DNA from: a virus
IMG/VR virus record: IMGVR_UViG_3300050138_000032
Location: 1 to 39,328 of that record
Direction: 5' to 3' (one strand)
Length of the DNA: 39,328 bases
A program made the position numbers and the translations under genes. Numbering within the stretch: the stretch's first letter is position 1; every line of letters starts with the position of its first letter. Positions 15,464 through 36,087 of the stretch are shown piece by piece. The notes beneath the pieces were generated by a model that was not told the origin of the DNA, did no database searches, and worked only from the letters and a program-made list of their open reading frames with translations.

Positions 15464-16476
15464 TGCCAGCAGGACTTCTTTCTGTTGGTCATCCCCCGTT
15501 GATATTCAGCGGGGCGGCTGATTACGTCAGCAAAAAGTTTGGCGGGTTCATCCATTTTGGTATCAACACCTTTACGGGGAACGGTTACTCTGCATACGAC
15601 CCCACCACGAGCCCAAATGTCTTTAATCCAACAAGCCTGAACGTCGGCCAGTGGATTAGCACCTACAAAACCGCGAAAATGAAATACGCGATTTTGACGA
15701 TAAAGCACGCAATGGGGTTTCTGCCTTACCCCTCGTCAAACACTACGTTTGGGATTGCTTCGAGTACTTGGTACGCGGCCAATGGAAGTCCTGACATTGT
15801 TGCGGAGTTTGTTAATTGGTGTAGGGCACTTGGAATAATCCCAGGTTTCTATATATCCACCGCTGACCTTAATTTTGAGCACAACATCAGCGGTGGGACG
15901 TTCACGCAGGCAGCCTATCGCGCCTACAACCAAGCCATAATTATAGAACTGCTCACGAAGTACGGCCCGATTGGCGTATTTTGGTTTGACACAAACAACT
16001 GGGGTTTTGGGACACCCTCGTACACCGGAAGCGCCGGGTACGGAACTTATGGTCCTTGGTCAAGCGCGGGGGACATGCGAGCCTTCGTTCAGAGCATACA
16101 GCCAACTTGTCTTTGTATAGTTGACGACCACACGCATAGTTACGCCAGTCAAGACGTTGCAGAATTTGAAATCTTCAGCGTAGTCACCGAAGGCGCTTAT
16201 GCTACATCGTCTGATGCTATCCAGTCTGGCAACTCACAGTACGCAGAAGAATTTCTGGCGATTGCAGCCAAAAATCAGGGTGGCGTTAGTGGGTGCGGGC
16301 CGTGCTTCCATGACGCAAACTACACGGTTATTTCAGCGTCTTCGATATTAACTGAAATTTCCCGCGTCAACGCCTGTAACGGTACGTTGAGCCTTAATGC
16401 GCCTCCTAATCAAACCGGGCAGATCGACAGTTCGATTACGTCCGTCCTGGCGACCGTTGGGGCTTCGTTGCCGTAA
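15463..16476 (+). CDS. GH29 alpha-L-fucosidase-like tail-region protein
   Basis: The start is ATG 15463, overlapping the previous stop by one base; the upstream TTG extension is unlikely. The 337 residues follow the GH29 barrel: GGFIHFGINTF (residues 27-37), FNPTSLNVGQWI (54-65), KMKYAILTIKHAMGF (72-86), GIIPGFYIS (124-132), and ELLTKYGPIGVFWFD, where Asp176 aligns with the catalytic nucleophile. The usual KHHDGF motif is changed to KHAMGF, losing one substrate-binding His and the Asp. The small beta domain of full-length fucosidases is reduced, which fits the 337-residue length. A phage role in removing fucose-like sugars from capsule, LPS or exopolysaccharide is inferred; altered or lost activity is possible. 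Confidence 0.8.
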   Translation: MPAGLLSVGHPPLIFSGAADYVSKKFGGFIHFGINTFTGNGYSAYDPTTSPNVFNPTSLNVGQWISTYKTAKMKYAILTIKHAMGFLPYPSSNTTFGIASSTWYAANGSPDIVAEFVNWCRALGIIPGFYISTADLNFEHNISGGTFTQAAYRAYNQAIIIELLTKYGPIGVFWFDTNNWGFGTPSYTGSAGYGTYGPWSSAGDMRAFVQSIQPTCLCIVDDHTHSYASQDVAEFEIFSVVTEGAYATSSDAIQSGNSQYAEEFLAIAAKNQGGVSGCGPCFHDANYTVISASSILTEISRVNACNGTLSLNAPPNQTGQIDSSITSVLATVGASLP

Positions 16477-16494
16477 TCCTACACAACCTACAAC
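16474..16494 (+). promoter_or_regulatory. Candidate phage-RNAP promoter before the lysis cassette
   Basis: TAATCCTACACAACCTACAAC matches the recurrent motif TAACCCTACACAACAGGAAAC at about 16 of 21 positions. It is the best plus-strand copy. It sits at the start of the 101-bp gap between the GH29-like gene and the holin candidate. A GGGTGC/GCACCC hairpin follows at 16518-16547. Confidence 0.5.
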
Positions 16495-16577
16495 TATCGA
16501 GCCTCAGGGAAGCCCGTGGGTGCGTTAATCACACTCCACAGGCACCCTGGGACCCCCTCCAACTCAGCAGAACCGCC

Positions 16578-16796
16578 ATGAAATCCTGGGTCCTCTCCCG
16601 CCTCATAGACGACCACGCGCGTCTACACCTGCTCTGGAGCGTCCGTCTTCAACTCTTCTGGGCTGCGTTTTCTGGGCTCTACGTCGCGTTGCCTGCGTTC
16701 CAAGACTACGTCCCCCCAGTCCAGTTTGCGCTGCTCTGCATAGGCATGAGCGTCGCCATCTTGATTGCTCGCGTCACAAAACAATCCAAGGACTGA
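16578..16796 (+). CDS. Holin candidate
   Basis: This 72-residue membrane protein starts MKSWVLSRLIDDHARLHLLWS. It has two hydrophobic helices (about residues 25-42 and 46-64) and ends in a short basic tail. I recognise it as one of the small phage proteins annotated as putative holins in alphaproteobacterial and pseudomonad phages. A holin sets lysis timing by permeabilising the inner membrane. The endolysin gene starts 1 nt later and spanins follow, so the assignment fits. A second small membrane protein at 17705-18064 could be the true holin or an antiholin. Confidence 0.75.
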   Translation: MKSWVLSRLIDDHARLHLLWSVRLQLFWAAFSGLYVALPAFQDYVPPVQFALLCIGMSVAILIARVTKQSKD

Positions 16797-16797
16797 C

Positions 16798-17277
16798 ATG
16801 GCTGCCAATACGAAAAAGGGCGCACTCGGCGCCGCTGCGCTAGCCGTGATTGCTCTCGTAAACTGGGAAGGCATGGACCTAACAGCCAAGCATCAGCGCA
16901 TAGACCCTCCGGGTGTCATTACGGCCTGCATAGGCCAAACCAACTACGACGACCCAGACCTACGCATAGGTCAGCGGTTCTCCCCCGAAGAGTGCAAGGC
17001 GCGGCTGCTCAAGGACCTCCCCAAGTACGAGGCTCAAGTAGACCGCTGCGTCCACGTCCCCATGCCCCCGCATAGGCGCGCAGCAATTATCAGCTTCACA
17101 TACAACGTCGGCGGCGGCGCTCTGTGCAAGTCATCCGTGGCCCACAATCTCAACGCCCATCGGGTCCGTGAAGCCTGCGACGGGCTTATGAACTACACAA
17201 GAGCCAACGGCAAGGTGCTCCAAGGCTTAATCAACCGCCGTCGCTATGAACGCGACTGGTGCAACAGAGACGATTAA
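16798..17277 (+). CDS. GH24 endolysin (lysozyme), probably with signal-anchor-release N-terminus
   Basis: The 159-residue lysozyme starts at ATG 16798. Residues 8-23 are a weakly hydrophobic Ala/Gly/Leu/Val segment directly followed by WEG, the arrangement of SAR endolysins, which are held in the membrane and released when it depolarises. Catalytic Glu24 lies in NWEG, Asp36 in RIDPPGVIT and Thr42 six residues later. The Asp-Thr spacing equals that of T4 lysozyme, while the Glu-Asp gap is longer. The C-terminal half has SFTYNVGGGALCKSS and GLINRRRYERDWC, standard for the family. It cleaves peptidoglycan glycan strands at the end of infection. Confidence 0.9.
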   Translation: MAANTKKGALGAAALAVIALVNWEGMDLTAKHQRIDPPGVITACIGQTNYDDPDLRIGQRFSPEECKARLLKDLPKYEAQVDRCVHVPMPPHRRAAIISFTYNVGGGALCKSSVAHNLNAHRVREACDGLMNYTRANGKVLQGLINRRRYERDWCNRDD

Positions 17278-17281
17278 CGAA

Positions 17282-17563
17282 ATGCTAGCAGTTCTCTCAT
17301 TTTTATTGAGCCCCATCGGGCGTGTCGTCGGCGTTGCCGCACTGGCGCTCTCGTTAGTGGGCGGAATTTACGCTGCGGGTGCTTACAATGACCACCGCGC
17401 ATACACTGCAAAACTTGAAAAGGAAGCCGCCAATGCGGTCGATAAAGCTAACGCCGCACGTTTGGCGGCTGACAAGAAGTTCAATTCTCACCCTATCCTT
17501 GTTGGCCCTAAGCCTCACGCTTGGAGCCTGCGCCACGACCCGGACAGGTTCTCAAGGGACTAA
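17282..17563 (+). CDS. Inner-membrane spanin (Rz-like)
   Basis: The 93-residue protein has one N-terminal transmembrane segment (about residues 14-38) and an Ala/Lys-rich predicted coiled coil (DHRAYTAKLEKEAANAVDKA, then AARLAADKKF). This is the normal shape of an inner-membrane spanin subunit that bridges the periplasm to Rz1. I chose ATG 17282, just after the endolysin stop, rather than the upstream ATG at 17246 inside the endolysin. The gene contains the start of an out-of-frame lipoprotein gene (17433), the classic nested Rz/Rz1 arrangement, which strongly supports the call despite the lack of sequence conservation in spanins. Confidence 0.75.
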   Translation: MLAVLSFLLSPIGRVVGVAALALSLVGGIYAAGAYNDHRAYTAKLEKEAANAVDKANAARLAADKKFNSHPILVGPKPHAWSLRHDPDRFSRD

Positions 17564-18064: not shown

Positions 18065-18070
18065 CAAAGT

Positions 18071-18115: not shown

Positions 18116-18120
18116 ACTCC

Positions 18121-23732: not shown

Positions 23733-23749
23733 CAGTTGGTTCCTTTCAT

Positions 23750-25333
23750 TTAGAACACGCAGTCCGAAAGCCGCCCAGTGTCCCTTGAGTACGTCAGTGT
23801 CCCCATAGGTCCCTTGCGCCCGCCATTTCTCCTGTTCTTGATGCACACAGGCACCACGTTCATGCCGTGCGGATCATCCTTTGACTTGTTGAGAGCGATG
23901 ACCGCGTGAGATAGCTGCGCGATGCTGTGCGAGCCCCTGAGTTGCCCCAGGTGAACTTCAGCGCCGTCTTCGTGCCCCAAGTCACCACTAGGGCGCTTAA
24001 GATGCACTACGCAGAACAGGCCGATGTTGAGTTCGTTCGCCAGCGAGTTCAGCTTCGTCATCGCCATGTCTAGCGTTCGCCGCTCGTCACCCTCCAGCCC
24101 CGAGACGAGGATGGAGATATGGTCGAGAAATATCCAATGCACGCCGCAGACCTTGGCGAGGTAGCGTATCTTTTCGCAGACGTTGTCCACCTCGTTTGAG
24201 CCGAAGTGGTCGTAGAGATACAAAGGCTTCTCAGTGAGCAACTCGTAGGCCGCTGCAGTGTCTTCCTTTGACGCCAGCGAACGGTCCATCAGAATGTTCT
24301 TGTCTAGCGCTATGCCGACGAGGGCTTCCATCGTCTCGACGTTGCTCTCTTCTAGAAACAGTGCGCCAACGGCTTGACCGTGCGTGATCAGTGCGTGATA
24401 GAGCAACTCTCGCAGGAGAGTAGATTTTCCAATTCCGGTTCCGGCAGTGAGCGTAACAAGTGCTCCCAAGCGCATTTGGCCGAGAACTTCGTTCCATTCG
24501 TGCCACGGGTACGGGATGCCCCTGACTTCCGGCGGATTGAGGAAGGCTTCTCGAATGTCTTTCGCGTGCTTGATGCCATCTGGCCTCCATGTCGGTGCGT
24601 TCCAGAACGAACGGATAATCGGCGCAGGGCCATGCTCCATCAGGACCGCGTTTGCGTCCTTCTCCGTGAGCACCGCAATCGCTGCTTTGCCGACCGGGAG
24701 CAGCGCAGCGACCTTCTCGGCCGCCTCCTGTCCCGGCGCGTCCATGTCGAACATGAGAACGATGCGGTCGAACTTGTCGAGCCACTCGTACGCGTTCGTT
24801 ATGGCCTTCTCTGCCGATTGAGCGCCGTTCGGGAGCGAGACCACAGCCCACTTGTTGTCCATCGCCTGCGAGACTGACAGTGCGTCAAGCTCGCCCTCAG
24901 TGATGACGAGGTGTTTGCCGGCGTTGAACTTCCACTGTCCGTACAGCGGCATGTTCTTGCCGTTGCCAACGATGGAGAACTGCTTGCCCTTGGCGCGTAT
25001 CTTCTGTGCAACTAGCTTTCCCTTCTCGTCGCGGTAGGACGCTACGTGACACTGGGCGCCGTCAACTTCGGTCCAGCCGTAGCCCCAGGCTTCACAAGTT
25101 TCCTTGGTCAGTCCACGTCCAGGTACGGCGCGAACGTCCACGTCCAGTGGCGTCCAGTCCTGTACGTCGGGCTCTCGTTTTGAGACCATTTCCATAGCGC
25201 TTCCTCCGTGGACGTGGTGGCTACAGCCCATGCTGAAGCAGTGCTCACCGCCGTCGCTGTAGAAGGCGTTGGCGTCGTGTGATCCACACTTCGGGCACGG
25301 GCCTTTGCGGGTAACGTGCGCTTCATCAGACAT
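23750..25333 (-). CDS. T7 gp4-like primase-helicase
   Basis: The 527-residue bifunctional protein has an N-terminal zinc ribbon (Cys13, Cys16, Cys32, Cys37) that reads the priming site. A TOPRIM-type primase core follows, with LVITEGELDALS and IVLMFDMDAPGQEAA. The C-terminal RecA-like helicase has Walker A AGTGIGKSTLL (Lys303), Walker B around IFLDHISILVSG, and a His-containing FCVVHLKRP motif H3. It unwinds DNA and makes primers at the fork. It precedes DNA polymerase, as in T7, and its start overlaps the upstream membrane protein by 8 nt. All the main domains are intact. Confidence 0.95.
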   Translation of the reverse strand: MSDEAHVTRKGPCPKCGSHDANAFYSDGGEHCFSMGCSHHVHGGSAMEMVSKREPDVQDWTPLDVDVRAVPGRGLTKETCEAWGYGWTEVDGAQCHVASYRDEKGKLVAQKIRAKGKQFSIVGNGKNMPLYGQWKFNAGKHLVITEGELDALSVSQAMDNKWAVVSLPNGAQSAEKAITNAYEWLDKFDRIVLMFDMDAPGQEAAEKVAALLPVGKAAIAVLTEKDANAVLMEHGPAPIIRSFWNAPTWRPDGIKHAKDIREAFLNPPEVRGIPYPWHEWNEVLGQMRLGALVTLTAGTGIGKSTLLRELLYHALITHGQAVGALFLEESNVETMEALVGIALDKNILMDRSLASKEDTAAAYELLTEKPLYLYDHFGSNEVDNVCEKIRYLAKVCGVHWIFLDHISILVSGLEGDERRTLDMAMTKLNSLANELNIGLFCVVHLKRPSGDLGHEDGAEVHLGQLRGSHSIAQLSHAVIALNKSKDDPHGMNVVPVCIKNRRNGGRKGPMGTLTYSRDTGRLSDCVF

Positions 25334-26927: not shown

Positions 26928-26930
26928 GTG

Positions 26931-26951: not shown

Positions 26952-26960
26952 CTTATGGAC

Positions 26961-27149
26961 TTACTGTTTTGCCTCAGAGGCCTTGGCGATCCGCGCCGCC
27001 TCAAGGTTGGTCTCAGTGAGCGACGGCTGAGTGGTAACCGGCGCAGTAGCAGTCACTGGCGCCGGAGCCGTCGGAGTGGCAGCGGTTTCGGTGCCCATAG
27101 CTTCCGCAATGAGGGCTTCGGCCTTCTGCAGCAAATCTTTCGCGCTCAT
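26961..27149 (-). CDS. 62-residue Ala/Thr/Pro-rich protein, function unknown
   Basis: The small protein has an N-terminal charged helix (MSAKDLLQKAEALIAEAMG), a central low-complexity Ala/Thr/Pro stretch of about 25 residues, and a short C-terminal helix (LTETNLEAARIAKASEAKQ). No conserved family is visible. It overlaps the serine-protease gene by 4 nt upstream (ATGA) and is followed by a 33-bp leader that carries a candidate promoter. It may be an adapter or substrate of the protease, but that is speculation from position. Confidence 0.6.
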   Translation of the reverse strand: MSAKDLLQKAEALIAEAMGTETAATPTAPAPVTATAPVTTQPSLTETNLEAARIAKASEAKQ

Positions 27150-27886
27150 AGTGTTCCTTCAGTTGTTGGTTCAGCCTTAACCGGAGCGGTGTGCTTTGAA
27201 GCAAGCTCTGTAGCAAGCTCCCGGCAAATGACTGACTTGGGGATGATGTAGGTGAGCATAGTGAATGATGTCACGACACCAAACGGCCCCGCAGATAATG
27301 ACACGACGGAAGCCACTGTGATGCCGGCTAGGTTACCGGCAATGTCAAAGAGTGGGCCACCGCTGTTGCCGGGGGCGGTTGTCAGGTCCGCGATAAAGTT
27401 AACTTGACCAGGACCGTGTGCGCCGTCACGCGCAAGCACTTCACTAGCTGCACGCCCCCAGGTGTGAATGCGGTCGAGGGCTAGAGGGTAACCAATGGTC
27501 TTGACGTAATCTCCGATCTTCACGTCGGGGGTTTTGCAGGCCAGCGGAACTGGCACTGCGTTCTTCAGCGGGGCGTCGAGCTTGAGCAGCCCAACGTCCG
27601 CCACTTCGTTGAACCACAAGACGACGGCGTGTACTTCGTTGCCGTTGAGGTCCTTGACTGTGAAGCCGGCTGCTACGCCTTCCTTTGCGACGTGCGCCGC
27701 AGTGAGGATTTCGTTGTTGCCGATGTAGACGCCAGAGCCGTGCCCTTCTCCAATGCTGACTTTGACGACGGTGGCGTCACTGTAGGTGCCTCCGTAGGCG
27801 GGAGGCGTGTTCAGTATTGTGATTAAAGCGAGTATGGCGCCAGCCGCAAAAGCGGCGAGGCCTAGCGCGCCTAAGTATTTGAGCAT
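27146..27886 (-). CDS. Membrane-anchored trypsin-like serine protease
   Basis: The 246-residue protein begins with one hydrophobic segment (residues 5-25), probably a signal anchor or signal peptide placing the protease in the periplasm. The chymotrypsin-fold triad is intact: His65 in LTAAHVA, Asp97 in VADVGLLKLD and Ser175 in TAPGNSGGPLFD. There is no PDZ domain, unlike HtrA/DegP. A protease of this kind is unusual among T7-like middle genes. It could degrade envelope proteins, process virion proteins or alter host surface defence. It starts at ATG 27886 behind an AGGAAACAC site next to a candidate promoter, and is coupled to the downstream Ala/Thr/Pro-rich gene. Confidence 0.85.
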   Translation of the reverse strand: MLKYLGALGLAAFAAGAILALITILNTPPAYGGTYSDATVVKVSIGEGHGSGVYIGNNEILTAAHVAKEGVAAGFTVKDLNGNEVHAVVLWFNEVADVGLLKLDAPLKNAVPVPLACKTPDVKIGDYVKTIGYPLALDRIHTWGRAASEVLARDGAHGPGQVNFIADLTTAPGNSGGPLFDIAGNLAGITVASVVSLSAGPFGVVTSFTMLTYIIPKSVICRELATELASKHTAPVKAEPTTEGTL

Positions 27887-27889
27887 GTG

Positions 27890-27910
27890 TTTCCTGTTGT
27901 GTAGAGTTTA
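27890..27910 (-). promoter_or_regulatory. Candidate phage-RNAP promoter before the protease gene
   Basis: The minus strand reads TAAACTCTACACAACAGGAA, overlapping the stop of the upstream gene and ending at the protease ribosome site. It matches the recurrent motif at nearly all core positions (CTACACAACAGGAAAC). Confidence 0.5.
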
Positions 27911-28081
27911 CGCAACAACCCGCGAAGCGCGGAAGGCGTTCATCAGTTCACGGTGGAACGTGCTGCGGGCTTTCTTCTCCATACGTCTGAAGTTGAAGTT
28001 AATGAAGTTGCCCTTGCTGTCGCGCACGCGCGCATCCCAGTGAGCGGCGCCCATACGGATGATGATGTTTGGCTTGTTCAT
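27908..28081 (-). CDS. 57-residue basic protein, function unknown
   Basis: The frame runs from ATG (complement 28079-28081) to TAA. The product begins MNKPNIIIRMGAAHWDARVR, then has GNFINFNFRRMEKKARS and ends with an amphipathic basic helix. The charge and an initial beta-strand suggest a small nucleic-acid-binding protein. It overlaps the upstream zinc-motif gene by 4 nt (ATGA). No family is recognised. Its stop overlaps the candidate promoter of the protease gene. Confidence 0.6.
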   Translation of the reverse strand: MNKPNIIIRMGAAHWDARVRDSKGNFINFNFRRMEKKARSTFHRELMNAFRASRVVA

Positions 28082-28299
28082 TCGTCCCTCTTCTCTATGT
28101 CAAAGTTTCCGAACACGTCGTCCTGACAATCCTGGCAAAGCGCTGAAACCCGATACTCAATGCTCGACCGGCCATCACGGAACATGAAGTTGCTTGCGGT
28201 GTGCAGCGCGTTGCTTGGTCCGCGTCCACACATAGGACAGCGCTGGAGGCCGAACTTGTTGTCGCCGGCGTGCACGCCGATGGGGCGTGTGTCAGTCAT
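28078..28299 (-). CDS. Small four-cysteine zinc-motif protein
   Basis: I start it at the ATG that overlaps the upstream stop (complement 28297-28299), not at 28410. The 73 residues include CPMCGRGPSNAL and, ~40 residues later, ALCQDCQDDVFGNF, two CxxC pairs that probably bind one zinc ion. Between them is a beta-like SNFMFRDGRSSIEYRVS segment. Such zinc ribbons often bind nucleic acids or host RNA polymerase. The function is not known. It overlaps both neighbours by 4 nt. Confidence 0.65.
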   Translation of the reverse strand: MTDTRPIGVHAGDNKFGLQRCPMCGRGPSNALHTASNFMFRDGRSSIEYRVSALCQDCQDDVFGNFDIEKRDE

Positions 28300-28451
28300 G
28301 TGTGGGCTCCAGGCCAGATGAACTCTTTGTCCCAGAGCGCATAAAGCTCTTCGAGGATGTAGCCGTCCTCGACCAGCATCGCCGCCATGTCGAGCGGCAA
28401 GCAACCCCACAGCCAGTAGTAGGCGCGGGCACGTTCTTCGTTACGCGTCAT
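28296..28451 (-). CDS. 51-residue acidic helical protein, function unknown
   Basis: The frame starts at ATG (complement 28449-28451), overlapping the HNH stop by 4 nt, and stops inside the next start codon. The product begins MTRNEERARAYYWLWGCLPLD and continues AAMLVEDGYILEELYALWDKE. Aromatic residues and helical periodicity suggest a small protein-binding domain. Tight overlaps on both sides support translation. No family is recognised. Confidence 0.6.
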   Translation of the reverse strand: MTRNEERARAYYWLWGCLPLDMAAMLVEDGYILEELYALWDKEFIWPGAHT

Positions 28452-28888
28452 GTTGATTGTCCTTTGATGTGGGCAACAAGCCGCTCAAGCTCTGCAAGCG
28501 TGCAGGAGCCCTTGAGTTGATTGATGCGGTTGGAGACGAAGCCGACGTTGCCGATGACGTAGCCGAGTTCGGGGACGCGTCGGTCAAGAGAAGGTGAGTT
28601 GTTACCTTGATGCTTGCTACCCCGAACCATAGGGGTACGTAAAATTGGACAAAGACCGTCCGCAGGAAAGATACTTTGCAAGTACGCCGCCGTAAGATTA
28701 AACGGCAGTCCCTTTTCTTTAGCTGCTATGCGGGCGCTCTGCATGTTCGCACAAAACCGCGCCTTAGCCATGTACGCTGGAGAGCGCCACAACTCATACA
28801 GGCGTCCGCTGCGCAGCTTTCCTTGCCCGCAGTATTGGTAACCGTCCTCTCGGAGTGTTCCGGGTTTAGGCAAAGGCGAACGGCGCAC
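28448..28888 (-). CDS. HNH-like endonuclease (probable mobile gene)
   Basis: The 146-residue protein starts at GTG 28888 with a strong GGGAGGTA ribosome site, inside the last 23 nt of the RNA polymerase gene. The second half carries the phage pattern DGLCPILRTPMVRGS, then SPSLDRRVPELGYVIGNVGF and SNRINQLKG. These features are typical of a small HNH-like family often inserted among phage genes. The N-terminal half (SGRLYELWRSPAYMAKARF, NMQSARIAAKEKGLPFNLT) is helical and may bind DNA. It is the third endonuclease-like mobile gene in the window, of a different type from those at 5846 and 19764. Confidence 0.78.
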   Translation of the reverse strand: MRRSPLPKPGTLREDGYQYCGQGKLRSGRLYELWRSPAYMAKARFCANMQSARIAAKEKGLPFNLTAAYLQSIFPADGLCPILRTPMVRGSKHQGNNSPSLDRRVPELGYVIGNVGFVSNRINQLKGSCTLAELERLVAHIKGQST

Positions 28889-31310
28889 AGAGTACCTCCC
28901 TTATGTTCAGCGTTCCGTATTGTAACGCTTCTGGCAATCTATTCCTGTTGTGTACGGTTAGGTCATGGCTCGCCTGTGCTGTGACCTCCGCAAGAACGTC
29001 GTGGTCTGCATAGAGCTTTACGAACTGCTCTCTTATGATCTGATTGAACCGCGTAGCCTGTGGTGCAAGACACCCGAAGCTATCGTGAACCGTTGCGAGT
29101 TGTGTAATGTTTTCCGAAACGCAAGCGTTCGTCACCATCAACAAGTGCGCCGCGTCAAGCGCGTGGACGAAGTTCGGAGCCACGCCGTTCGCCGCTTTGT
29201 CTTTGTCGATTGCCTTCTCGCTGCCTTCAGCGACAACGGTACGAATGCGGGTGTCTCGTAGCCACAAGCCCACGCGCTTAAGAACGGGGGCGTGGTATCG
29301 GTTTATCCACGGAAGCCCAAGCGGGGTCGTCCATGTCAGCGGCTTGCCTTCATGTGCCAATGCTCTTGCGCACTTCTGCAACATGACCATCGCCTGCGCT
29401 GGCAAGGTCACCAGTTGTTCGATAGCATCATAAATATGGCAAGCCAGATACTTAGCCGCAGGGCGTCCATCGTCAGCGCCAAAAGGGTGTTCATCGAGTT
29501 TTCCTGAGAGTACGTCGAAGGCTAAGGGGCGCATGAGGTCTTCTTGAAGCTGCTTCGCCATGCCGAACTTCTTTGAAGAGTAGCTGTAGGTCATCACGTT
29601 CCGCTTGACCATCTTGCGGTCAATTCCGAACTCAATCGCCGCAGACGCATTCGGGACGCCACTCTCCACATCCAGGGCAACACGGGCCGTAACGGCTGAT
29701 GCTACCGTCTGATACACGTCCTGCGGAAGCGGTGACGGCGTCAGGTTCACTAAGTTCGCGGTATTCGCGTCCCGTGTCATCGCCGCTAGGTGTTGGAGAC
29801 CGGAGCAGCTTCCGTCGAAGGACACAGGCAGCCGTGTGATCCAAGAAGGCCCCCCACGTAGAGCATCCGACAGTTCCATAATAGCAGCGAGGAAGAGGAA
29901 CGGCTTGTCGGCTGACGCCCACCACTTGACGGTTCCACGCGGGTCCGCCGTACACGCGTTTATCTCCGCTATATTTACGTCCGTCCATACTTCACGTTCC
30001 TCCAGTGAACGCTTTGAAATCTTGTTGAAGTCGCCGCAGTTAGCGACGTGAATTTTCAGCCACCTCAAGCCCTCTTCGCCAATCGGTTGCCCGTCGGCAA
30101 ACAGGAAGAGCGCTCTTACGCGGTCGTCTCTTTGGAAATTGAAGTGACAGATGCCATATACACGGCCTCGCCAATCGCAGTTGAGGGGGGTCCAAAAGCG
30201 GCCTGCGTCCGCAAGGCGTTGAGCCGTGCAAGTATCAGACGCGAAAAGCACGCGCTCGCTGGTGTAACTGCGGTTTCGTTCTTTGACTTGTCCAGTACGG
30301 TATTTCCACAGTCGGCGCATAGCGTCGTCCATGTCGTCCCAGGCGCGGGGCTTTGCGGGAAGCGCGCAGTCTTCCTTTGGAGGCAGCCCTGGCACAGGAA
30401 TACTGTTATCGTAGGCCCACTGGAGAACATTGAGCACCTTTGTGTTGATTGACCACGCCGTATTCTGGAGCGCGTTGAGTGCGTCAAGGTGCGGCTGCAT
30501 CGAGCCGTCCCTGATTGCTGCGCGAATGACGCCTGCGGTTTCCTTGTGGAACGAGCGAACTACAGAGGTCCGCAAGCGCGTGCGTTCATCCCAGTATCCG
30601 CCAGCCGTCCATCCAGTCCACGGCTTGGGGGGCGTAGTGCAGGGCAGGAATACTGGGTTGCGACGGAGGGCAAACTCTACGGCCTGCTCTGCGAGATTCT
30701 GGGCGCCCGGTGTGATGGTCAGATAGCCGTCTGACCAATCCTCCATCCCTACTTCAAATATGTCTGGGAGTGCCACCAACAGACAATTAAGAAGGACTTG
30801 GCCGGCCTGCGCCAACTGAGTTGGTGACCACTTCGCCTTCATAAATCCGGCACGGAAAGCGATACTGCGCGCAGCCTGGGCGCGGTACTTCAGGGAACCG
30901 TGGCGCCGCCGCACGGCGCGGTCAATGCGCTTGGCGAGCTTAGGCTTTTCATCAAGTAGACAAGCCGCCCACGCCTCTCCATTGATGGCGCGCCCTATAC
31001 TGAAGCGTGTCTTCAGTAAGCCATTTCCCACGGCTACGGAGTTTAGGGCGCTGTCCAGCGCTGACACGGCTATGGTTTCAATAGGAAGGTTGCGGATTAC
31101 CCGCAAGAATGACTTCTCGGGTGCCGTCTCTGTAAGGTCCGACAAAGCGGTTATCCGTTCCTGAATGTAGACCGCTAGACGATCCACGCAGGCCTGAGCG
31201 ATTGCCAAGGCGCCAGCGCCCTGCCCATACCCAAAGTCTCTCTCAATTCTGGCCTGCGCCGCATTAAAGCGGTCAACTGTGGCCTGCTCGCTGAGGATTG
31301 CTGTTTCCAT
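28866..31310 (-). CDS. T7-like single-subunit RNA polymerase
   Basis: The 814-residue protein corresponds to T7 gp1 (883 residues). The palm has LPVSFDGSCSGLQHLAAM with Asp499 (T7 Asp537), the fingers have KMVKRNVMTYSYSSKKFG with Lys569 (T7 Lys631), and motif C is TVHDSFG with Asp743 (T7 Asp812). Gly640 of T7 is replaced by Ser after the Tyr. The N-terminal domain is shorter than in T7. It starts behind CAGGAG, downstream of an integrase terminator and a candidate cognate promoter at 31401-31421. A phage RNA polymerase should transcribe the middle and late genes from phage-specific promoters. The 3' end overlaps the HNH gene. Confidence 0.96.
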   Translation of the reverse strand: METAILSEQATVDRFNAAQARIERDFGYGQGAGALAIAQACVDRLAVYIQERITALSDLTETAPEKSFLRVIRNLPIETIAVSALDSALNSVAVGNGLLKTRFSIGRAINGEAWAACLLDEKPKLAKRIDRAVRRRHGSLKYRAQAARSIAFRAGFMKAKWSPTQLAQAGQVLLNCLLVALPDIFEVGMEDWSDGYLTITPGAQNLAEQAVEFALRRNPVFLPCTTPPKPWTGWTAGGYWDERTRLRTSVVRSFHKETAGVIRAAIRDGSMQPHLDALNALQNTAWSINTKVLNVLQWAYDNSIPVPGLPPKEDCALPAKPRAWDDMDDAMRRLWKYRTGQVKERNRSYTSERVLFASDTCTAQRLADAGRFWTPLNCDWRGRVYGICHFNFQRDDRVRALFLFADGQPIGEEGLRWLKIHVANCGDFNKISKRSLEEREVWTDVNIAEINACTADPRGTVKWWASADKPFLFLAAIMELSDALRGGPSWITRLPVSFDGSCSGLQHLAAMTRDANTANLVNLTPSPLPQDVYQTVASAVTARVALDVESGVPNASAAIEFGIDRKMVKRNVMTYSYSSKKFGMAKQLQEDLMRPLAFDVLSGKLDEHPFGADDGRPAAKYLACHIYDAIEQLVTLPAQAMVMLQKCARALAHEGKPLTWTTPLGLPWINRYHAPVLKRVGLWLRDTRIRTVVAEGSEKAIDKDKAANGVAPNFVHALDAAHLLMVTNACVSENITQLATVHDSFGCLAPQATRFNQIIREQFVKLYADHDVLAEVTAQASHDLTVHNRNRLPEALQYGTLNIREVLCAPFAFA
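28941..28961 (-). promoter_or_regulatory. Candidate phage-RNAP promoter inside the RNA polymerase 3' end
   Basis: The minus strand reads CTAACCGTACACAACAGGAAT, a close match to the recurrent motif, although here it lies within coding sequence. It would drive the HNH gene and the genes beyond it. Because the codons read Leu-Thr-Val-His-Asn-Arg-Asn, it could also be chance. Confidence 0.4.
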
Positions 31311-31400
31311 CTTATGGGGCTCTCCTGTTTTTGCGGCTTTAGGTAACGGCGGAAGAGGGCCGCCCGTAAGCCGTTGATATTGTTAGAGACGGAGTGACTA

Positions 31401-31421
31401 TTGCGAGGTGTGTAGGGTAAG
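31401..31421 (-). promoter_or_regulatory. Candidate promoter upstream of the RNA polymerase gene
   Basis: The minus strand reads CTTACCCTACACACCTCGCAA, matching the recurrent motif in TTACCCTACACA. It lies between the integrase terminator and RNA polymerase, so it could let the polymerase amplify its own transcript. The purine-rich +1 region is less conserved here. Confidence 0.45.
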
Positions 31422-31424
31422 GGC

Positions 31425-31460
31425 AAAAAACGACCGCCCCTTATGCAGAGGTCAGTCGTT
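31425..31460 (-). terminator. Intrinsic terminator after the integrase
   Basis: On the minus strand, ACGACTGACC pairs with GGGGCGGTCGT (with one GU and one mismatch), followed by TTTTTT. It ends the integrase transcript, separating lysogeny genes from RNA polymerase. Confidence 0.8.
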
Positions 31461-31501
31461 ATACAAGGGGTGACTATCACCTAACCGGATCGAATATCCG
31501 A

Positions 31502-32626
31502 CTAGGGATAATCAGAAATGTCGTCTTCCTGTCCCTCCAAAAGATGCGCGTTAAAGTCAGGGAGTTCTTGCACGTCCTTCTGGCCTGGAAGGAACGCCGC
31601 CGCGGCAGCGCGCACAGTTTGCCCCGCACGTGGGGAAAGAATTTTGGCTGCATCAGCGAGCAGCCCCTTGGTGACGTGGGTGTACTTCAGCGTCGTGTTC
31701 AGCGACGAATGCCCCATGAAATCCTTCACAACTGCGAGGTTGACGCCACCATGCACCAGCCGGGTCGCCGTCGTGTGGCGCAGACTGTGGATGGAAATAT
31801 CGTCAGATTGCCCCGCAGTTTTCAGCGCGACCTTAAAATAGTGGCGGAATGTGTCGTATCCAGGTGCGGCGTTTAGGGTCAACATTCGCCGCAAATCGCT
31901 AGCCAAGTCAGCGTCTATCGGAACGTCGCGGGGTGTGTCCGTCTTGGTCGCCGTGAGCTTGATCCAGGTGTCCTCCACCATTGCTGGCTCCAGGCCGGCG
32001 AACTCGCTCCAGCGCATCCCTGTGGCAATCAGCACGCGCACGGTGAGCGCAGCCTCAGGGTGACCAGCAGCCTGCAGCGCGGCCACTACGGCGTCCTCTG
32101 CCGCTTCCGGCAGCCAGTGAATACGGTGGCCCGCTTCCTTCTGCCAGGGCACTGATGGAACTCCCACGATGTACGCCCGCTTCTTGGCGAACGTCAGGAC
32201 GGCGGACGCGGCCGCAAGGTAACGGTTTATCGTGCCAGCCGACAGCTTGCCATTGCTCTTGATGCCGGGGCGGTTCTTAAGGGACCCCACGAGGCGGTCG
32301 AGGTCCGTGGCGCGCACGTCAGCAATGAGCGTGTCCTTGCCCAGGCAGGCCTCGGCATAGTCCAGGCGCTGCCCGAGCGACGGGTCACGGTCAGCCTGCC
32401 AGCCGGCGTGATGCTCCAGAGCCTCGGCCTTGACGCTGCCAAACGTTGGCCCGACGACAACGCCAGCCTCTACAGGCGGGGCGCCCGTGAGCTTGATGAA
32501 ATCGGCCCAGTGCTCACCGTCGCGTTTGGTGTCAAAGCGCTTGCGGCGACGGTCACCAGAAGCTGTGACCTCGGCAATCCACTTGCCAGTGAGCTTTCCG
32601 TTTCGGCGTTCAGGATAAATTGCCAT
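31502..32626 (-). CDS. int: Tyrosine-type integrase
   Basis: The start is ATG 32626, preceded by GGGAGGAAAGG, not the 32707 extension, which would overlap the membrane protein. The 374-residue protein has an N-terminal arm-binding region, a core-binding SAM-like domain (residues ~65-160) and a catalytic domain with Arg205 (ATGMRWSEFAGL), His280-x-x-Arg283 (IHSLRHTTATR), His306 (MGHSSLNTT) and Tyr315 (LKYTHVT). All catalytic residues are present, so the phage should integrate into the host chromosome. The attP site is likely near the 3' end or in the 31461-31501 stretch. An integrase directly upstream of a T7-like RNA polymerase is unusual. Confidence 0.94.
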   Translation of the reverse strand: MAIYPERRNGKLTGKWIAEVTASGDRRRKRFDTKRDGEHWADFIKLTGAPPVEAGVVVGPTFGSVKAEALEHHAGWQADRDPSLGQRLDYAEACLGKDTLIADVRATDLDRLVGSLKNRPGIKSNGKLSAGTINRYLAAASAVLTFAKKRAYIVGVPSVPWQKEAGHRIHWLPEAAEDAVVAALQAAGHPEAALTVRVLIATGMRWSEFAGLEPAMVEDTWIKLTATKTDTPRDVPIDADLASDLRRMLTLNAAPGYDTFRHYFKVALKTAGQSDDISIHSLRHTTATRLVHGGVNLAVVKDFMGHSSLNTTLKYTHVTKGLLADAAKILSPRAGQTVRAAAAAFLPGQKDVQELPDFNAHLLEGQEDDISDYP

Positions 32627-32879
32627 TGCCCTTTCCTCCCTTGTTCCCGAACACGCTGATAATTGCGCCAGCAACAACCCACAGCAGGATGAACGGCGCC
32701 AGCCCAATGAACACCGCGTAAGCGGCTACGAACGTGCCGCCCACAAGCGGCTCTGCGTGGTACGCGTAGATCACGTAGGCCACTACGCAGCCCGCTATGA
32801 ATAACCAAGTGTGTTCAATGACAACGTGAAACAGGATTGCTATGGCTAGCAAGCCAAGGATGCCTGTGAGGATTTCCAT
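32610..32879 (-). CDS. Three-span membrane protein of the lysogeny module
   Basis: The 89-residue protein has at least three hydrophobic helices (ILTGILGLLAIAILFHVVI, WLFIAGCVVAYVIYAY and AAYAVFIGLAPFILLWVVAGAII) and a short Gly/Lys/Asn tail. It overlaps the integrase start by 17 nt and begins one base after the winged-helix gene's end. Its position between regulator and integrase suggests a lysogenic-conversion or superinfection-exclusion role, but this is inference. No sequence family is recognised. Confidence 0.7.
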   Translation of the reverse strand: MEILTGILGLLAIAILFHVVIEHTWLFIAGCVVAYVIYAYHAEPLVGGTFVAAYAVFIGLAPFILLWVVAGAIISVFGNKGGKGNGNLS

Positions 32880-32880
32880 G

Positions 32881-33297
32881 TCACCTCTCCCATTGCCTGA
32901 GTATCTTGTGGGCCCACGCGCGTCCTTTGTCCGTCAGCATGTACTCGTGTTTCCGTAGCTCCATCGGGTTCGCCCGGTAGGTGACGAGCCCAAAGCCTTC
33001 TTCCATGTGCCGGTTGCGGTCGCCTATGTCGAGCAAGTGGCGCGACATGACCGAGACAGACACGCCAGCGCGTTCGGCGTAGTCACCGACGCCTAGGCCC
33101 TCTTCGTGGCAGACGATCAAGAAGGCCGTGACGTATTGCAGGGGCATTGTAGCCCGTAGGTCTCGGAAGGGCTCCAGGGCCGATAGCAGATTACGCACGG
33201 ATTTCTGTTCAGCGTCAGGTAGACCCTTTGTAGCCACAGCAGCACCTCCCCATCGGGCGTTAACTCCCGGCAGCGTGAAAGTATCTGTCATAGCCAT
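32881..33297 (-). CDS. MarR-like winged-helix regulator (repressor candidate)
   Basis: The 138-residue protein has a MarR-type fold in residues ~35-135: PLQYVTAFLIVCHEEGLGVGD (helix), YAERAGVSVSVMSRHLLDIG (recognition helix), then a beta wing and YMLTDKGRAWAHKIL. It starts at ATG 33297 (a second ATG lies three codons in) behind CGGAGAAC. Winged-helix proteins of this kind occur in many podoviruses as transcriptional or replication regulators. As the first gene of the lysogeny cluster it is the best candidate for the lysis-lysogeny repressor. GTGA/TCAC dyads at 33308-33321 could be its operator. Confidence 0.78.
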   Translation of the reverse strand: MAMTDTFTLPGVNARWGGAAVATKGLPDAEQKSVRNLLSALEPFRDLRATMPLQYVTAFLIVCHEEGLGVGDYAERAGVSVSVMSRHLLDIGDRNRHMEEGFGLVTYRANPMELRKHEYMLTDKGRAWAHKILRQWER

Positions 33298-33321
33298 TTG
33301 TTCTCCGTGAGTCGAGTCACT

Positions 33322-33342
33322 GTTACCTCAAGTGTAGCTAAA
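33322..33342 (-). promoter_or_regulatory. Candidate promoter upstream of the winged-helix regulator
   Basis: The minus strand reads TTTAGCTACACTTGAGGTAAC, which keeps CTACAC, AGG and AAC of the recurrent motif. The repeated element CCTCAAGT occurs at 33326 and again at 33371. It could be a phage promoter, an operator, or both. Confidence 0.35.
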
Positions 33343-33372
33343 GAACGCACAAGTCCCAGATTGGTTCCTGCC

Positions 33373-33669
33373 TCAAGTAAACATTACCGCTTGCCCCTCC
33401 ATAACGACTATAACGCTCGATAACTCAGGAAACGCTAAGAGGGCTTCGTTTCCCCAAGACAGTAGGCCGTGATGAAACGTGTCAAGCAGCACTTCTATTT
33501 GCCACACGCCGCCTTGGTCACTTTCAAGCGCTACTATTTCTCCAGTTTCGCCGGCACAAAGTGTAGTGTGCGGTAAAAGATCAATGTCCTTTGTGAGCAT
33601 TACGCGTTGGAATAGAACCATAGGTTCCACTAGATTGAAGTTCAAAGCTCTCACAATGTTGAACGGCAT
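33373..33669 (-). CDS. Small early-type protein, function unknown
   Basis: The 98-residue protein begins MPFNIVRALNFNLVEPMVLF and has a beta-rich body with a GETGEIVALESDQGGVWQI segment and a C-terminal SSVIVVMEGQAVMFT strand. The GEIVxL...V.I pattern resembles a small SH3-like barrel, but no specific family is certain. The start is preceded by GAAGGATGAATA. A promoter-like motif lies at 33701-33720 just upstream. It is transcribed towards the regulator and integrase. Confidence 0.65.
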   Translation of the reverse strand: MPFNIVRALNFNLVEPMVLFQRVMLTKDIDLLPHTTLCAGETGEIVALESDQGGVWQIEVLLDTFHHGLLSWGNEALLAFPELSSVIVVMEGQAVMFT

Positions 33670-33700
33670 TATTCATCCTTCGTTTATTGTTGGTGAACCT

Positions 33701-33720
33701 CGCCTTTTGTGTAGTAGCAC
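33701..33720 (-). promoter_or_regulatory. Candidate promoter before a small early gene
   Basis: The minus strand reads GTGCTACTACACAAAAGGCG, matching the CTACACAA and AGG core of the recurrent motif. The upstream TAAC part is not conserved. Confidence 0.35.
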
Positions 33721-33748
33721 GATAAGCGTAGCTCGCAATCTTTATTAT

Positions 33749-34105
33749 CTAGGTACTTCTTGTGACCATCTGCGCCACTCTCTGGATTTTAGCCGGGGGA
33801 TGGATACCCTCTAGCCCCCTGTGCAGCCGCCACAGATTGACGGTACGGGGGTCCCCCCAACAGTCAGCCGGCGCGAAAAGATAGAGGAACCGTATCCACC
33901 CAATAAGGTGAGTGTGGTTCTCCCAGTCCGCGTGGATGTACGCATGGACGAAGTCATTATCCATTATGAGATTTAGAAAGTACCCGCCGTCGACGCCGTG
34001 GTCTATGTAGTTTTCCACGAGTGTGTGCATGTGGGCCGGAATATGGTGTAAACCCCGGTGGTAACTCCGCGCGTGATGCTGATGTTGTCCGTGATAGTTG
34101 CCCAT
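33749..34105 (-). CDS. Conserved small phage protein with His-rich N-terminus, function unknown
   Basis: The 118-residue protein starts at ATG 34105 behind AGAAAGGGC. From about residue 20 it follows a pattern I know from many phage and integrative-element proteins: HIPAHMHTLVENYIDHG, then GGYFLNLIMDNDFVHAYIHAD, then LFAPADCWGDPRTVNLW. The first ~20 residues are His-rich and lie in an overlap with another frame. No function is established to my knowledge. The conserved core supports the reading frame strongly, and the IPxH motif indicates a start upstream of Met26. Confidence 0.78.
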   Translation of the reverse strand: MGNYHGQHQHHARSYHRGLHHIPAHMHTLVENYIDHGVDGGYFLNLIMDNDFVHAYIHADWENHTHLIGWIRFLYLFAPADCWGDPRTVNLWRLHRGLEGIHPPAKIQRVAQMVTRST

Positions 34106-34217
34106 AGGTTGCCCTTTCTGTTGAGCGTTTCAAGGTCACGACGATACGCCATAGAACAAACAGAACACTGAATGCTAGCCAAGAGGTTACTATTACGGCA
34201 CCTGTGCTTTGCATACA
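33957..34217 (-). CDS. Single-span membrane protein overlapping the next gene out of frame
   Basis: A frame starts at ATG (complement 34215-34217) behind CGGAGAGA. It encodes a convincing transmembrane helix (VIVTSWLAFSVLFVLWRIVV) and a basic cytoplasmic segment (TLKRSTERATYGQL). The remaining ~45 residues are read from the first 149 nt of the gene at 33749-34105 in a different frame and are Arg/Pro/Ser-rich. The N-terminal 45 residues look genuine; the overprinted tail may be functional or merely tolerated. An earlier stop would give the same membrane anchor. Confidence 0.5.
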   Translation of the reverse strand, partial: CMQSTGAVIVTSWLAFSVLFVLWRIVVTLKRSTERATYGQLSRTTSASRAELPPGFTPYSGPHAHTRGKLHRPRRRRRVLSKSHNG

Positions 34218-34261
34218 TTCTCTCCGGTTTGTGGTTACCAATATCCCTTCCGCCACCGTTG

Positions 34262-34552
34262 TCAACTGTGTAGGTAGCGAAGACAATCTTTAGCCGTCTC
34301 ACCACCAGCAAAGCGGTCGCCGGCTTCAGCGCCTTTGATCTGCTTTTCAATCAGACCAGCCAGCGCCGCCTTGTCGTACTCCAGCACGGGCACCGCCTTT
34401 GCCGTGTCCCAGGTCCCGCGCGGTAACGTCACCGACTGCAGGCCAGCAGGGTAGAACAGGCGTACCCATTTGGGACCGCAAGAGGCCACCAAAGCACGGC
34501 GGAAGCCACAGCCGATGTTGGGATGGTCAAGGTAGATCGTTACGTATTCCAT
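34262..34552 (-). CDS. Small early-type protein, function unknown
   Basis: The 96-residue protein begins MEYVTIYLDHPNIGCGFRRA and continues with beta strands (SCGPKWVRLFYPAGLQSVTL), ending in a Lys/Glu/Ala-rich helix and CLRYLHS. It starts behind GGGAGGTGAC, one base after the micro-peptide stop. A compact alpha/beta fold is likely, but I recognise no family. The C-terminal DNA also contains a weak copy of the promoter-like motif (about 34261-34280). Confidence 0.65.
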   Translation of the reverse strand: MEYVTIYLDHPNIGCGFRRALVASCGPKWVRLFYPAGLQSVTLPRGTWDTAKAVPVLEYDKAALAGLIEKQIKGAEAGDRFAGGETAKDCLRYLHS

Positions 34553-34553
34553 G

Positions 34554-34643
34554 TCACCTCCCAGTTACATAACAGATCGTTATGACTGATAGCGCAAACG
34601 AGAACGCCAGCCAAATGGCTATGATTTCCAAAAGCATGTGCAT
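34554..34643 (-). CDS. 29-residue membrane peptide
   Basis: A short frame starts at ATG (complement 34641-34643) behind AGGAGCGCC. Its product is a single hydrophobic helix (LLEIIAIWLAFSFALSVITI) ending CYVTGR. It lies exactly between two other genes with no extra space, starting 9 nt after the secreted-protein stop. The strong ribosome site and helix support it. The function is unknown. Confidence 0.55.
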   Translation of the reverse strand: MHMLLEIIAIWLAFSFALSVITICYVTGR

Positions 34644-34652
34644 TAGGCGCTC

Positions 34653-34988
34653 CTACATTCTGAAGCTGGCGCTGGCCACGCTGCGCGCACGTGTGCGCAC
34701 GGCGCCGCCGTCGTTTCCGCTTGTGACTATGCAAACCGAACCGTTGCAGGGTCCTGTTATCTTGCCGACATGGCGATGGCGCCCGTTGCACCACACGACC
34801 AGAGCGCCTTCATGCGCGTACGTCGCGCTACCGTAGTGACGCCAGTTGCACGCCAGATTGAAGCGCGCACCTGGATCAGAGTTGACTAGGTGCGACCGGG
34901 CATAAATCCCGCACCAGGGAACGTGGCGCGCCTCTGCTGCGCCAGTCAGTAGGCCGACGGCGACAATGGCTACAAGGATACGTTTCAT
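34653..34988 (-). CDS. Secreted CHAP-like protein resembling a Bradyrhizobium-type family
   Basis: The 111-residue protein has a cleavable signal peptide (MKRILVAIVAVGLLTGAAEA). The mature part starts RHVPWCGIYARSH and contains DPGARFNLACNWRHYG, a GALVVWCNGRHRHVGKI core and a C-terminal RTRARSVASASFRM. The Cys in PWCGIY and His in RHRHVG are where NlpC/P60-CHAP-type catalytic residues would be. I associate this family with Bradyrhizobium-type Alphaproteobacteria and their phages, so it is a clue to host. It may act on peptidoglycan in the periplasm, or be a host-derived cargo gene. It overlaps the upstream regulator by 4 nt. Confidence 0.7.
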   Translation of the reverse strand: MKRILVAIVAVGLLTGAAEARHVPWCGIYARSHLVNSDPGARFNLACNWRHYGSATYAHEGALVVWCNGRHRHVGKITGPCNGSVCIVTSGNDGGAVRTRARSVASASFRM

Positions 34989-35320
34989 GCGTGCGCCCTC
35001 CGAAGTGCTAGGCGGTAGCCAACTTTCTCTACCACCTGAATTTGAAAGCCCATATCATCCGCCAGCTTGCGCGCCCGCCAGATAGCTTGGCGCAGACAGT
35101 TGAAAGCGCCTTCAGGTTCGCAAACGCCGTACATCGAATGGATCAACTCGGTATAGCGCGCAGTCCCAACGCCCTTTGCGTGCATGGCGTAAAGCACATC
35201 AATGACCGCCCTGCGTGCCTTCCGCCGTTGGCCCCGGAATGTCACCGTGTTGGTATTCAGATCAACTATGAAGTCGGTGGGCGCGACGGCGCCACCACAG
35301 CACGGACATTTGGCGTTCAT
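34985..35320 (-). CDS. Winged-helix (OmpR-type) DNA-binding protein with N-terminal zinc motif
   Basis: The 111-residue protein begins with a short CxCC motif (MNAKCPCCGGAVAP) and a FIVDLNTNTVTFRGQ strand pair. It has a C-terminal effector-type winged helix: AVIDVLYAMHAKG, YTELIHSMYGVCEPEGAF, LRQAIWRARKLADDMG and VEKVGYRLAL. This is the OmpR/PhoB C-terminal DNA-binding layout without a receiver domain. It probably regulates phage or host promoters. It starts behind a GGAAAGGAACTATAACC leader shared in form with neighbouring genes, and overlaps the secreted-protein gene by 4 nt. Confidence 0.78.
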   Translation of the reverse strand: MNAKCPCCGGAVAPTDFIVDLNTNTVTFRGQRRKARRAVIDVLYAMHAKGVGTARYTELIHSMYGVCEPEGAFNCLRQAIWRARKLADDMGFQIQVVEKVGYRLALRRAHA

Positions 35321-35362
35321 GGTTATAGTTCCTTTCCAGGTTACGGTTGCGTGTTGACTACA

Positions 35363-35503
35363 TTAGAAGCCATAGACCAGCCGCACGAAGGCAACGTGCC
35401 GGGCGTGTTCATGTTCCCTATAATCCTCGGGAACGAACAGGTTGACGAGTACAGCGTGACGCCAGAACGCGGCCTGACGCATTGCTAAATAGAAGAAGGG
35501 CAT
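35363..35503 (-). CDS. 46-residue basic aromatic protein, function unknown
   Basis: A short frame starts at ATG (complement 35501-35503) behind TGAGGAAACGCC. The product begins MPFFYLAMRQAAFWRHAVLV and continues NLFVPEDYREHEHARHVAF, ending VRLVYGF. It is rich in Arg, His and aromatic residues. The gene overlaps the upstream stop by 19 nt and leaves a 42-nt leader before the next gene, similar in length to other leaders in the cluster. No family is recognised; existence is moderately supported. Confidence 0.5.
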   Translation of the reverse strand: MPFFYLAMRQAAFWRHAVLVNLFVPEDYREHEHARHVAFVRLVYGF

Positions 35504-35784
35504 GGCGTTTCCTCAATAGGTGGGTTGCAGATACCCGCGGCAATTAGCGCCGCCGCCGTGCGACCGAACCAGCGCGGCAAAGTCCACACGTCGCCCGTGT
35601 CAATCAGGCGTTGCCATTCGAGGGCGGATTGTTCGCTAGCGTGGCGCGGTACAGCGGGGCCGGGTGACCACGTGAACGGGTTGGTTTTCATGTGGGCGGT
35701 ACGCCTATGAAAGTCATTGCCCAGATCAATCGCTAGCGTGTCCACGCGGCGAAGGTTGCTGCCTAAGTCTATATTGGTATTCAT
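35485..35784 (-). CDS. Small early-type protein, function unknown
   Basis: The 99-residue protein begins MNTNIDLGSNLRRVDTLAIDLG; a second possible start is Met32. It has a Trp/Pro-rich middle (FTWSPGPAVPRHASEQSALEW) and a DTGDVWTLPRWFGRTAAALIAAG segment, ending in EETPCPSSI. The last half looks compact and conserved in character, but I recognise no family. It follows a leader with a weak promoter-like motif (about 35800-35820). Confidence 0.6.
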   Translation of the reverse strand: MNTNIDLGSNLRRVDTLAIDLGNDFHRRTAHMKTNPFTWSPGPAVPRHASEQSALEWQRLIDTGDVWTLPRWFGRTAAALIAAGICNPPIEETPCPSSI

Positions 35785-35846
35785 GGTGCCAGTTCCTTAG
35801 GGTGTAAGGTAGTGTTAAACTTTCCAGCCACAAGCTTTTGCTTGCG

Positions 35847-36059
35847 CTACGAGGCCGGGATTGCCTCCCCGATGAACCAAGGGGTCCGCAAGCGTTCACA
35901 ATCCGCGCCGGCCTTATCAATGCGCGCTTGCAGGTCGTCATGGTTCAATACGTCATTGAAGCGCAGCGCACCCTCCATAATGGCCTCTAAGAGGTTTTCG
36001 CGGCACTTGCCGAGTGCGGCGGATTGCTGGGAGGGCGTTAGGTCCTTGAAGGTCTTCAT
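35847..36059 (-). CDS. Conserved small phage protein, function unknown
   Basis: The 70-residue protein starts at ATG (complement 36057-36059), with GGAG nine bases upstream. Its sequence (FKDLTPSQQSAALGKCRENL, then EGALRFNDVLNHDDLQARID, then TPWFIGEAI) matches a small family I know from phages and mobile elements. It is usually found beside the larger protein encoded next door (36104-36742). The function is unknown. Highly conserved ALRFN and DDLQARI segments suggest a binding surface. Confidence 0.72.
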   Translation of the reverse strand: MKTFKDLTPSQQSAALGKCRENLLEAIMEGALRFNDVLNHDDLQARIDKAGADCERLRTPWFIGEAIPAS

Positions 36060-36066
36060 GGTGATA

Positions 36067-36087
36067 GTCTCCAATGGCGTAGGGTTA
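36067..36087 (-). promoter_or_regulatory. Candidate promoter before a small early gene
   Basis: The minus strand reads TTAACCCTACGCCATTGGAG, matching TAACCCTAC and the GG(A) start of the recurrent motif. It lies between two genes and ends at the next ribosome site. Confidence 0.45.

Follow-up and report, generated by a model that had tools for sequence, protein, structure and literature searches.

A repeated leader motif in a temperate-looking phage is predicted to be the promoter family of its own T7-type RNA polymerase

The window analyzed here is the whole of the IMG/VR virus record IMGVR_UViG_3300050138_000032, 39,328 bases in length, and the element in question is a motif of about 21 bp that recurs in its gene leaders. 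The early, lysogeny, and replication genes run along the minus strand between about 37.3 and 18.9 kb and include those for a tyrosine integrase, a T7-type RNA polymerase (RNAP), a gp2.5-like single-stranded DNA-binding protein (SSB), an endonuclease, a primase/helicase, a DNA polymerase, and an exonuclease; head, tail, and lysis genes occupy the plus strand. The two blocks converge near 18.7 kb and diverge from a noncoding region at 37.35 to 38.22 kb. The integrase gene (31502 to 32626, minus strand) lies directly upstream of the RNAP gene, and the phage is temperate-looking, with an RNAP of its own.

The RNAP gene (28866 to 31310, minus strand) encodes 814 amino acids, and we regard the assignment of its product to the T7 type, made in an earlier note on this DNA, as certain from its homology. 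The protein matched phrog_414 (E value of 4e-193), T7 RNAP structures (9e-102), and PF00940 (9.6e-96), and the catalytic motifs DGSCSG, KRNVMTYSY, and HDSFG align with the catalytic residues intact. Relatives in IMG/VR reach 53% identity over the full length and 60% over part of it. The single sequence found no match in species genomes, and a search with an alignment returned 9 loci, the best of which, at 45%, lies in a 278-kb bacterial contig of Bradyrhizobium sp. BR 10289 (NZ_JACOFR010000008.1; L105 in our labels for relatives). This locus adjoins a tRNA-like half and is likely a prophage, a hint that the phage group may have alphaproteobacterial hosts.

Leaders of 53 genes were assembled from simple, custom gene calls made partly by hand, and both the de novo motif search and the leader and motif statistics used custom scripts; as program controls, T7 and the Dickeya phage Ninurta each returned their known promoters. 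The 21-bp pattern proposed in the earlier note gave 3 matches at up to 3 mismatches, all on the minus strand, where 0.00 were expected by chance. De novo search of the leaders recovered TAACCCTACACAAC..GGAAAC at widths from 12 to 24, and at 21 bp the motif scored 19.7, compared with a mean of −1.5 and a maximum of 2.7 in 40 shuffles, so that the enrichment over shuffled sequence which the earlier note had proposed to check was obtained. When leaders were trimmed to intergenic sequence, the score rose to 30.1 (shuffle maximum, 9.9), and it was still 18.2 (shuffle mean, 4.1; maximum, 9.9) once the copy at 26930, one of a near-identical pair, was left out. The motif consists of the 14-bp block TAACCCTACACAAC and two further bases, after which 8 of 10 copies have a G (motif position 17).

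Five leader copies listed in the earlier note are solid, and all were recovered in the de novo motif. TAACCCTATACAACAGGAAAC (26930 to 26950, minus strand; 1 mismatch) stands 23 bp before the gp2.5-like SSB gene (26304 to 26927), and AAACTCTACACAACAGGAAAC (27889 to 27909, minus strand; 2 mismatches) stands 23 bp before a trypsin-like protease gene (27146 to 27886); the two have about 20 bp in common, through ACATG. TTACCCTACACACCTCGCAAT (31400 to 31420, minus strand; 6 mismatches) comes directly after a T-run between the integrase and RNAP genes, 110 bp before the RNAP start codon, and was also found by mutual prediction. TAACCCTACGCCATTGGAGAC (36067 to 36087, minus strand; 5 mismatches; ranks 7 to 15) lies 28 bp before an early gene (about 35849 to 36059). 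On the plus strand, TAATCCTACACAACCTACAAC (16474 to 16494; 5 mismatches) overlaps the stop codon of the gene at 15463 to 16476; about 104 bp further on, at 16578, comes the lysis cassette, with the endolysin gene at 16765 to 17277. The earlier note had given the spans of the 36067 and 16474 copies correctly, and its starts at 26931, 27890, 28941, and 31401 were one base too high. The protease (PF13365, E value of 3.4e-20), encoded between RNAP and SSB, is unusual company in a T7-type replication block.

The strongest test of the motif was mutual prediction, in which a matrix built from some copies ranked held-out copies among 78,630 positions. A matrix from the 26930 and 27889 copies, stripped of the half containing the ribosome site, placed 16474 3rd, 31400 8th, and 36067 15th, together with two copies inside the RNAP gene described below (28940, 3rd; 29092, 5th) and a weak copy before the capsid gene (10558, 6th). 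Conversely, a 21-bp matrix from the 31400 and 16474 copies, each more than 100 bp from a start codon, ranked 29092 3rd, 26930 4th, 27889 6th, 28940 7th, and 36067 9th; over all matrices from these distant copies, 26930 ranked 3 to 4 and 27889 ranked 5 to 6. Because start-adjacent and distant copies predict each other, the part that they have in common is neither a ribosome site nor a single local duplication. Strand bias, also named in the earlier note as a point to check, was clear: sense leaders accounted for 16 of the 40 best held-out matches and antisense leaders for 2, compared with a mean of 4.8 in sense leaders for column-permuted matrices. The motif showed no dyad symmetry (p = 0.96), which, with the 16:2 bias, fits a promoter rather than an operator. 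Together, these results bear out a family of about 21 bp in leaders on both strands: the repeated leader motif is real, nonrandom, and directional.

Further copies are of mixed standing. The 3′ end of the RNAP gene contains TAACCGTACACAACAGGAATA (28940 to 28960, minus strand; 3 mismatches; ranks 3 to 7), which the earlier note had recognized as coding, and a second coding copy that it missed, AAACATTACACAACTCGCAAC (29092 to 29112, minus strand; ranks 3 to 8 with all four training sets). The weak plus-strand copy that had been noted near 10557 is AAACCCAAAACAACTTCAGAA (10558 to 10578), 40 bp before the major capsid gene (10598 to 11500); it belongs to the de novo motif and ranks 6 to 20. More doubtful is TAACACTAGGCAATCTGCAAC (36767 to 36787, minus strand; in the de novo motif; ranks 5 to 33), 45 bp before the gene at 36104 to 36742, which sits on a perfect hairpin, TTGCCTA-ACAC-TAGGCAA (fold z of −2.0), and may be something other than the motif. 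Among weaker minus-strand copies in the earlier list, those given at 35800 and 33701 proved marginal (ACACCCTAAGGAACTGGCACC, 35785 to 35805, before the gene at 35485 to 35784, in the de novo motif with ranks 16 to 137; and 33699 to 33719, ranks 20 to 116), and those at 33322 (ranks 46 to 3453) and 34261 (ranks 4897 to 17819) found no support.

Given a real leader motif and an encoded T7-type RNAP, promoters for the phage enzyme remain the best reading, as the earlier note had proposed, and judging from sequence we consider it probable that the motif is the promoter family of this RNAP. The polymerase would recognize the motif copies, and the G at position 17 would be the likely first transcribed base. 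The copy at 31400 is a predicted self-promoter of the RNAP gene, from which transcription would likely set up positive feedback. Copies in the RNAP 3′ end (29092 and 28940) and before the protease (27889), SSB (26930), and early (36067) genes would serve the minus strand; on the other strand, 16474 would serve the lysis cassette and 10558, weakly, the capsid gene. The 26930 copy is predicted to be a promoter fused to a ribosome site; here and at 27889 the 5′ end of the transcript would itself supply the ribosome site, an arrangement with precedent in T7 φ1.5, φ1.6, φ4.3, and φ4.7. The caveat in the earlier note that AGGAA is also the ribosome site is not fatal to the promoter reading.

Several observations weigh against this reading. 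Strong copies in the window are few, and significance is lost when both 26930 and 27889 are left out of the intergenic leaders (9.3 compared with a shuffle maximum of 9.8). A 12-bp matrix of the core only (ACCCTACACAAC) was not significant in a held-out permutation test (p = 0.14 to 0.18). The GG start claimed earlier is not conserved: at that place the copies distant from start codons read CT, TC, or TT, and the constant feature is the single G at motif position 17. No good copy was found on the plus strand ahead of the late operon start at 38221, nor was the motif found in the leaders of six relatives (L028, G001, G002, G003, L029, and L105). The 28940 copy lies in the DLTVHN codons at the end of the RNAP gene, where the relative L028 is similar without having leader copies, and it may be explicable by conserved coding; it is thus a possible intragenic promoter for downstream genes or a product of coding constraint. 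Whole-genome counting of similar 21-mers picked out the promoters of T7 and Ninurta immediately and missed the window motif, so the family is looser or smaller. The exact pattern TANACAACAGGAAACACATG had no match in IMG/VR.

Comparison with characterized systems speaks for the promoter reading, as the positions of the sites (near the RNAP end, before SSB, and before RNAP after the integrase) are those seen in T7, T3, and LUZ100. T7 φ2.5 and T3 φ2.5 precede gene 2.5, as the 26930 copy precedes the gp2.5-like SSB gene, and T3 promoters likewise occur after RNAP. T7 φ1.5, φ1.6, φ4.3, and φ4.7 start 11 to 13 nucleotides before start codons, a fusion to the ribosome site paralleled by 26930 and 27889, and φ4c lies inside coding sequence, as do 28940 and 29092. 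T7 differs in its recognition sequence and in having copies far more alike. In Pseudomonas phage LUZ100, a phage promoter (φ1) was mapped experimentally before RNAP and after the integrase terminator (PMC10134795). Like the window, LUZ100 has a T7-like RNAP, an integrase next to it, and a promoter motif unlike that of T7; unlike the window, with its opposed gene blocks and predicted promoters, it has a genome laid out as in T7 and promoters that were mapped (PMC10134795).

The resemblance to T3 stressed in the earlier note is real but modest and comes partly from the Shine-Dalgarno-like end; it counts in favor of promoters without amounting to membership. T3 φ1.5 (CATTAACCCTCACTAACAGGAGA) agrees with the 26930 copy at 15 of 20 ungapped positions (TAACCCT....AACAGGA.A), and T3 φ1.3 and φ1.5 have TAACCCT and AACAGGA in common with the window in the same register. 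A T3-promoter matrix also preferred sense leaders of the window (7 of the top 20; permuted mean, 2.1; p = 0.01), and T7 and K11 matrices showed no such preference. The T3 consensus ACCCTCACTAA, however, has a CACT core where the window, though sharing TAACCCT, has ATAC or ACAC, so that the idea of a T3-like promoter with one inserted base fails: the core fits only with an insertion and a compensating deletion. ACAC/CACAA is present in most copies, and its register relative to the CAC core of T7 (or T3) at −7 to −5 is ambiguous. The window also departs from T3 in its convergent gene blocks, its integrase, its few copies, and the lack of a fixed GG; the specificity loop of its RNAP (RVGLWLRD-TRIR, compared with RLDMIFLGQFRLQ in T3) is likewise not T3-like. 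We predict from these features that motif and polymerase represent a new specificity, a new member among T7-type promoter families.

Other explanations of the motif were considered. Its sense-only placement would suit a directional RNA-level leader element, acting in processing, antitermination, or translation control and travelling with key operon mRNAs, as well as it suits a promoter; some copies extend into the ribosome site, and the 31400 copy follows a terminator-like T-run. We nevertheless consider such an element unlikely, as no consistent RNA structure was seen (fold z from −2.0 to +0.7, strong only in the doubtful 36767 copy), copies occur on both strands, with distances to starts ranging from 23 to 110 bp, and the encoded RNAP requires promoters. 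Leader repeats carrying an AGGAA ribosome site near the start codon and spread by local duplication would account for the two strongest copies, which are coupled to ribosome sites and share about 20 bp, and early genes do have another common ribosome-site leader, AAGGAACTAACACCATGA. With the Shine-Dalgarno half removed, though, the matrix still ranked 16474 (distance, 104) 3rd and 31400 (distance, 110) 8th of 78,630, and the distant copies in turn ranked 26930 4th and 27889 6th; for the 14-bp block this explanation is mostly refuted, and overall we hold it to be improbable. The second repeat, which spans ribosome site and start codon, occurs on the minus strand at 36756, 36073, 35798, 35334, 37026, and 28465.

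Binding sites for a regulator, such as the winged-helix protein encoded at 25631 to 25921, or an integrase arm-type or att site at 31400, appear very unlikely to explain the family. In four relatives (L033, L035, L036, and L028) an att-like sequence, TGCCACTTGTA, does lie 79 bp before a similar post-terminator element, and position 31479 of the window likely holds its counterpart; the motif, however, lacks a dyad (p = 0.96), is sense-biased, and has most of its copies far from the integrase region. A palindromic repressor operator, which calls for dyad symmetry and orientation-neutral placement, was rejected on the same dyad test and sense bias. Host sigma-70 promoters of the E. coli type, the kind scored here, were likewise rejected: no motif copy was among the −35/−10 sites with 16- to 18-bp spacing, of which 3 were found in 25000 to 39328 where 6.8 were expected.

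Relatives have leader families of their own, placed like phage promoters, and these count for the promoter reading. In G004 (IMGVR_UViG_3300030376_003034), AAAGGTGTCCCACCCTAG occurs four times on the minus strand (21915, 30667, 33220, and 37572), as exact copies before and directly after RNAP and as near-copies before the tail gene and an early gene; from its placement this SP6-like family is likely to comprise the promoters of the G004 RNAP. In the L070/L075/L077 group, TAATAnCTTCCACnTGTCAAAAG stands at −151 of RNAP, at +6 after its end, and further upstream. A leader unit of about 100 bp, holding TAATAnCTTCCACnTGTCAAAAG and CGGGGGACGTTTAGCCAAGAC (in L078 and L086, CAGGGGGTTTAGnCAAGAC), is duplicated before and after RNAP in L070, L073, L075, L077, L078, and L086. 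Two families in G003 were set aside: GCACTCAAC, T3-like in look, reflects a recurring coding motif ([DN]A[LF]N), and TAATACaGCACAAacGGCAG resembles the window motif by eye, with a matrix comparison that was not significant (p = 0.11). Pairs of similar words flanking RNAP reached the lowest attainable p (0.016) in 13 of 73 relatives, where about 1.2 were expected; they were not retained as support, since many are near-duplicates of one lineage and the best pair in the window is not the motif.

A terminator precedes RNAP in 24 of 52 deduplicated relatives (4 to 8 in shuffles), and in many an element follows it. A matrix from the RNAP leaders of ten relatives fitted the window sites better than its column-permuted versions (p = 0.003), and at width 20, though at neither 17 nor 23, its best site in the window RNAP leader fell exactly on 31420. 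Since in L033, L035, L036, and L028 the element looks like an att-type repeat found 79 bp upstream of it, we count this matrix as weak support and not as proof; in some members the post-terminator element may be an integrase site. The att-like element itself reads TCACCCCTTGTATAACG at 31479 to 31457 (minus strand) in the window and TGCCACTTGTAT in relatives, where it adjoins half tRNA genes; it lies upstream of RNAP in G002, G003, and L105, and a diverged repeat occurs 79 bp downstream in L033, L035, L036, and L028. As a tentative possibility, integrase-bearing phages with T7-type RNAPs, laid out in the window unlike T7, could form a clade in which every member has a promoter family of its own, diverging fast and anchored in the stretch from integrase to RNAP; one short region would then serve both the control of integration and the feedback promoter of RNAP, and the post-terminator element might derive from att or integrase arm-type sequence.

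Elsewhere in the window, the noncoding divergent region (37350 to 38220) contains a 10-bp tandem array (AGGGGCTCTA, 4.4 copies, 37607 to 37650), CTACATCTA-type repeats at 37739 to 37810, and an inverted repeat (CGACGATAAG/CTTATCGTCG) at 37515/37573, and is a candidate origin or lysogeny control region. The portal, scaffold, and capsid proteins have their annotated relatives among LUZ24-, N4-, and phiEco32-like phages and not in T7. The window is a mosaic phage, with T7-type RNAP and replication genes plus an integrase on one strand and N4/LUZ24-type head genes on the other, and no near DNA relative of its first 25 kb was found among annotated phages.

If the promoter reading is true, the window would contribute a new RNAP-promoter pair, distinct from those of T7, T3, SP6, and K11, for temperate-looking phages with T7-type RNAPs, a group that has been little studied, and would show a way in which a phage of this kind could supply gene blocks of opposite orientation. 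The families in relatives would form a series of diverging RNAP-promoter pairs, of use for studies of specificity change and as orthogonal expression parts.

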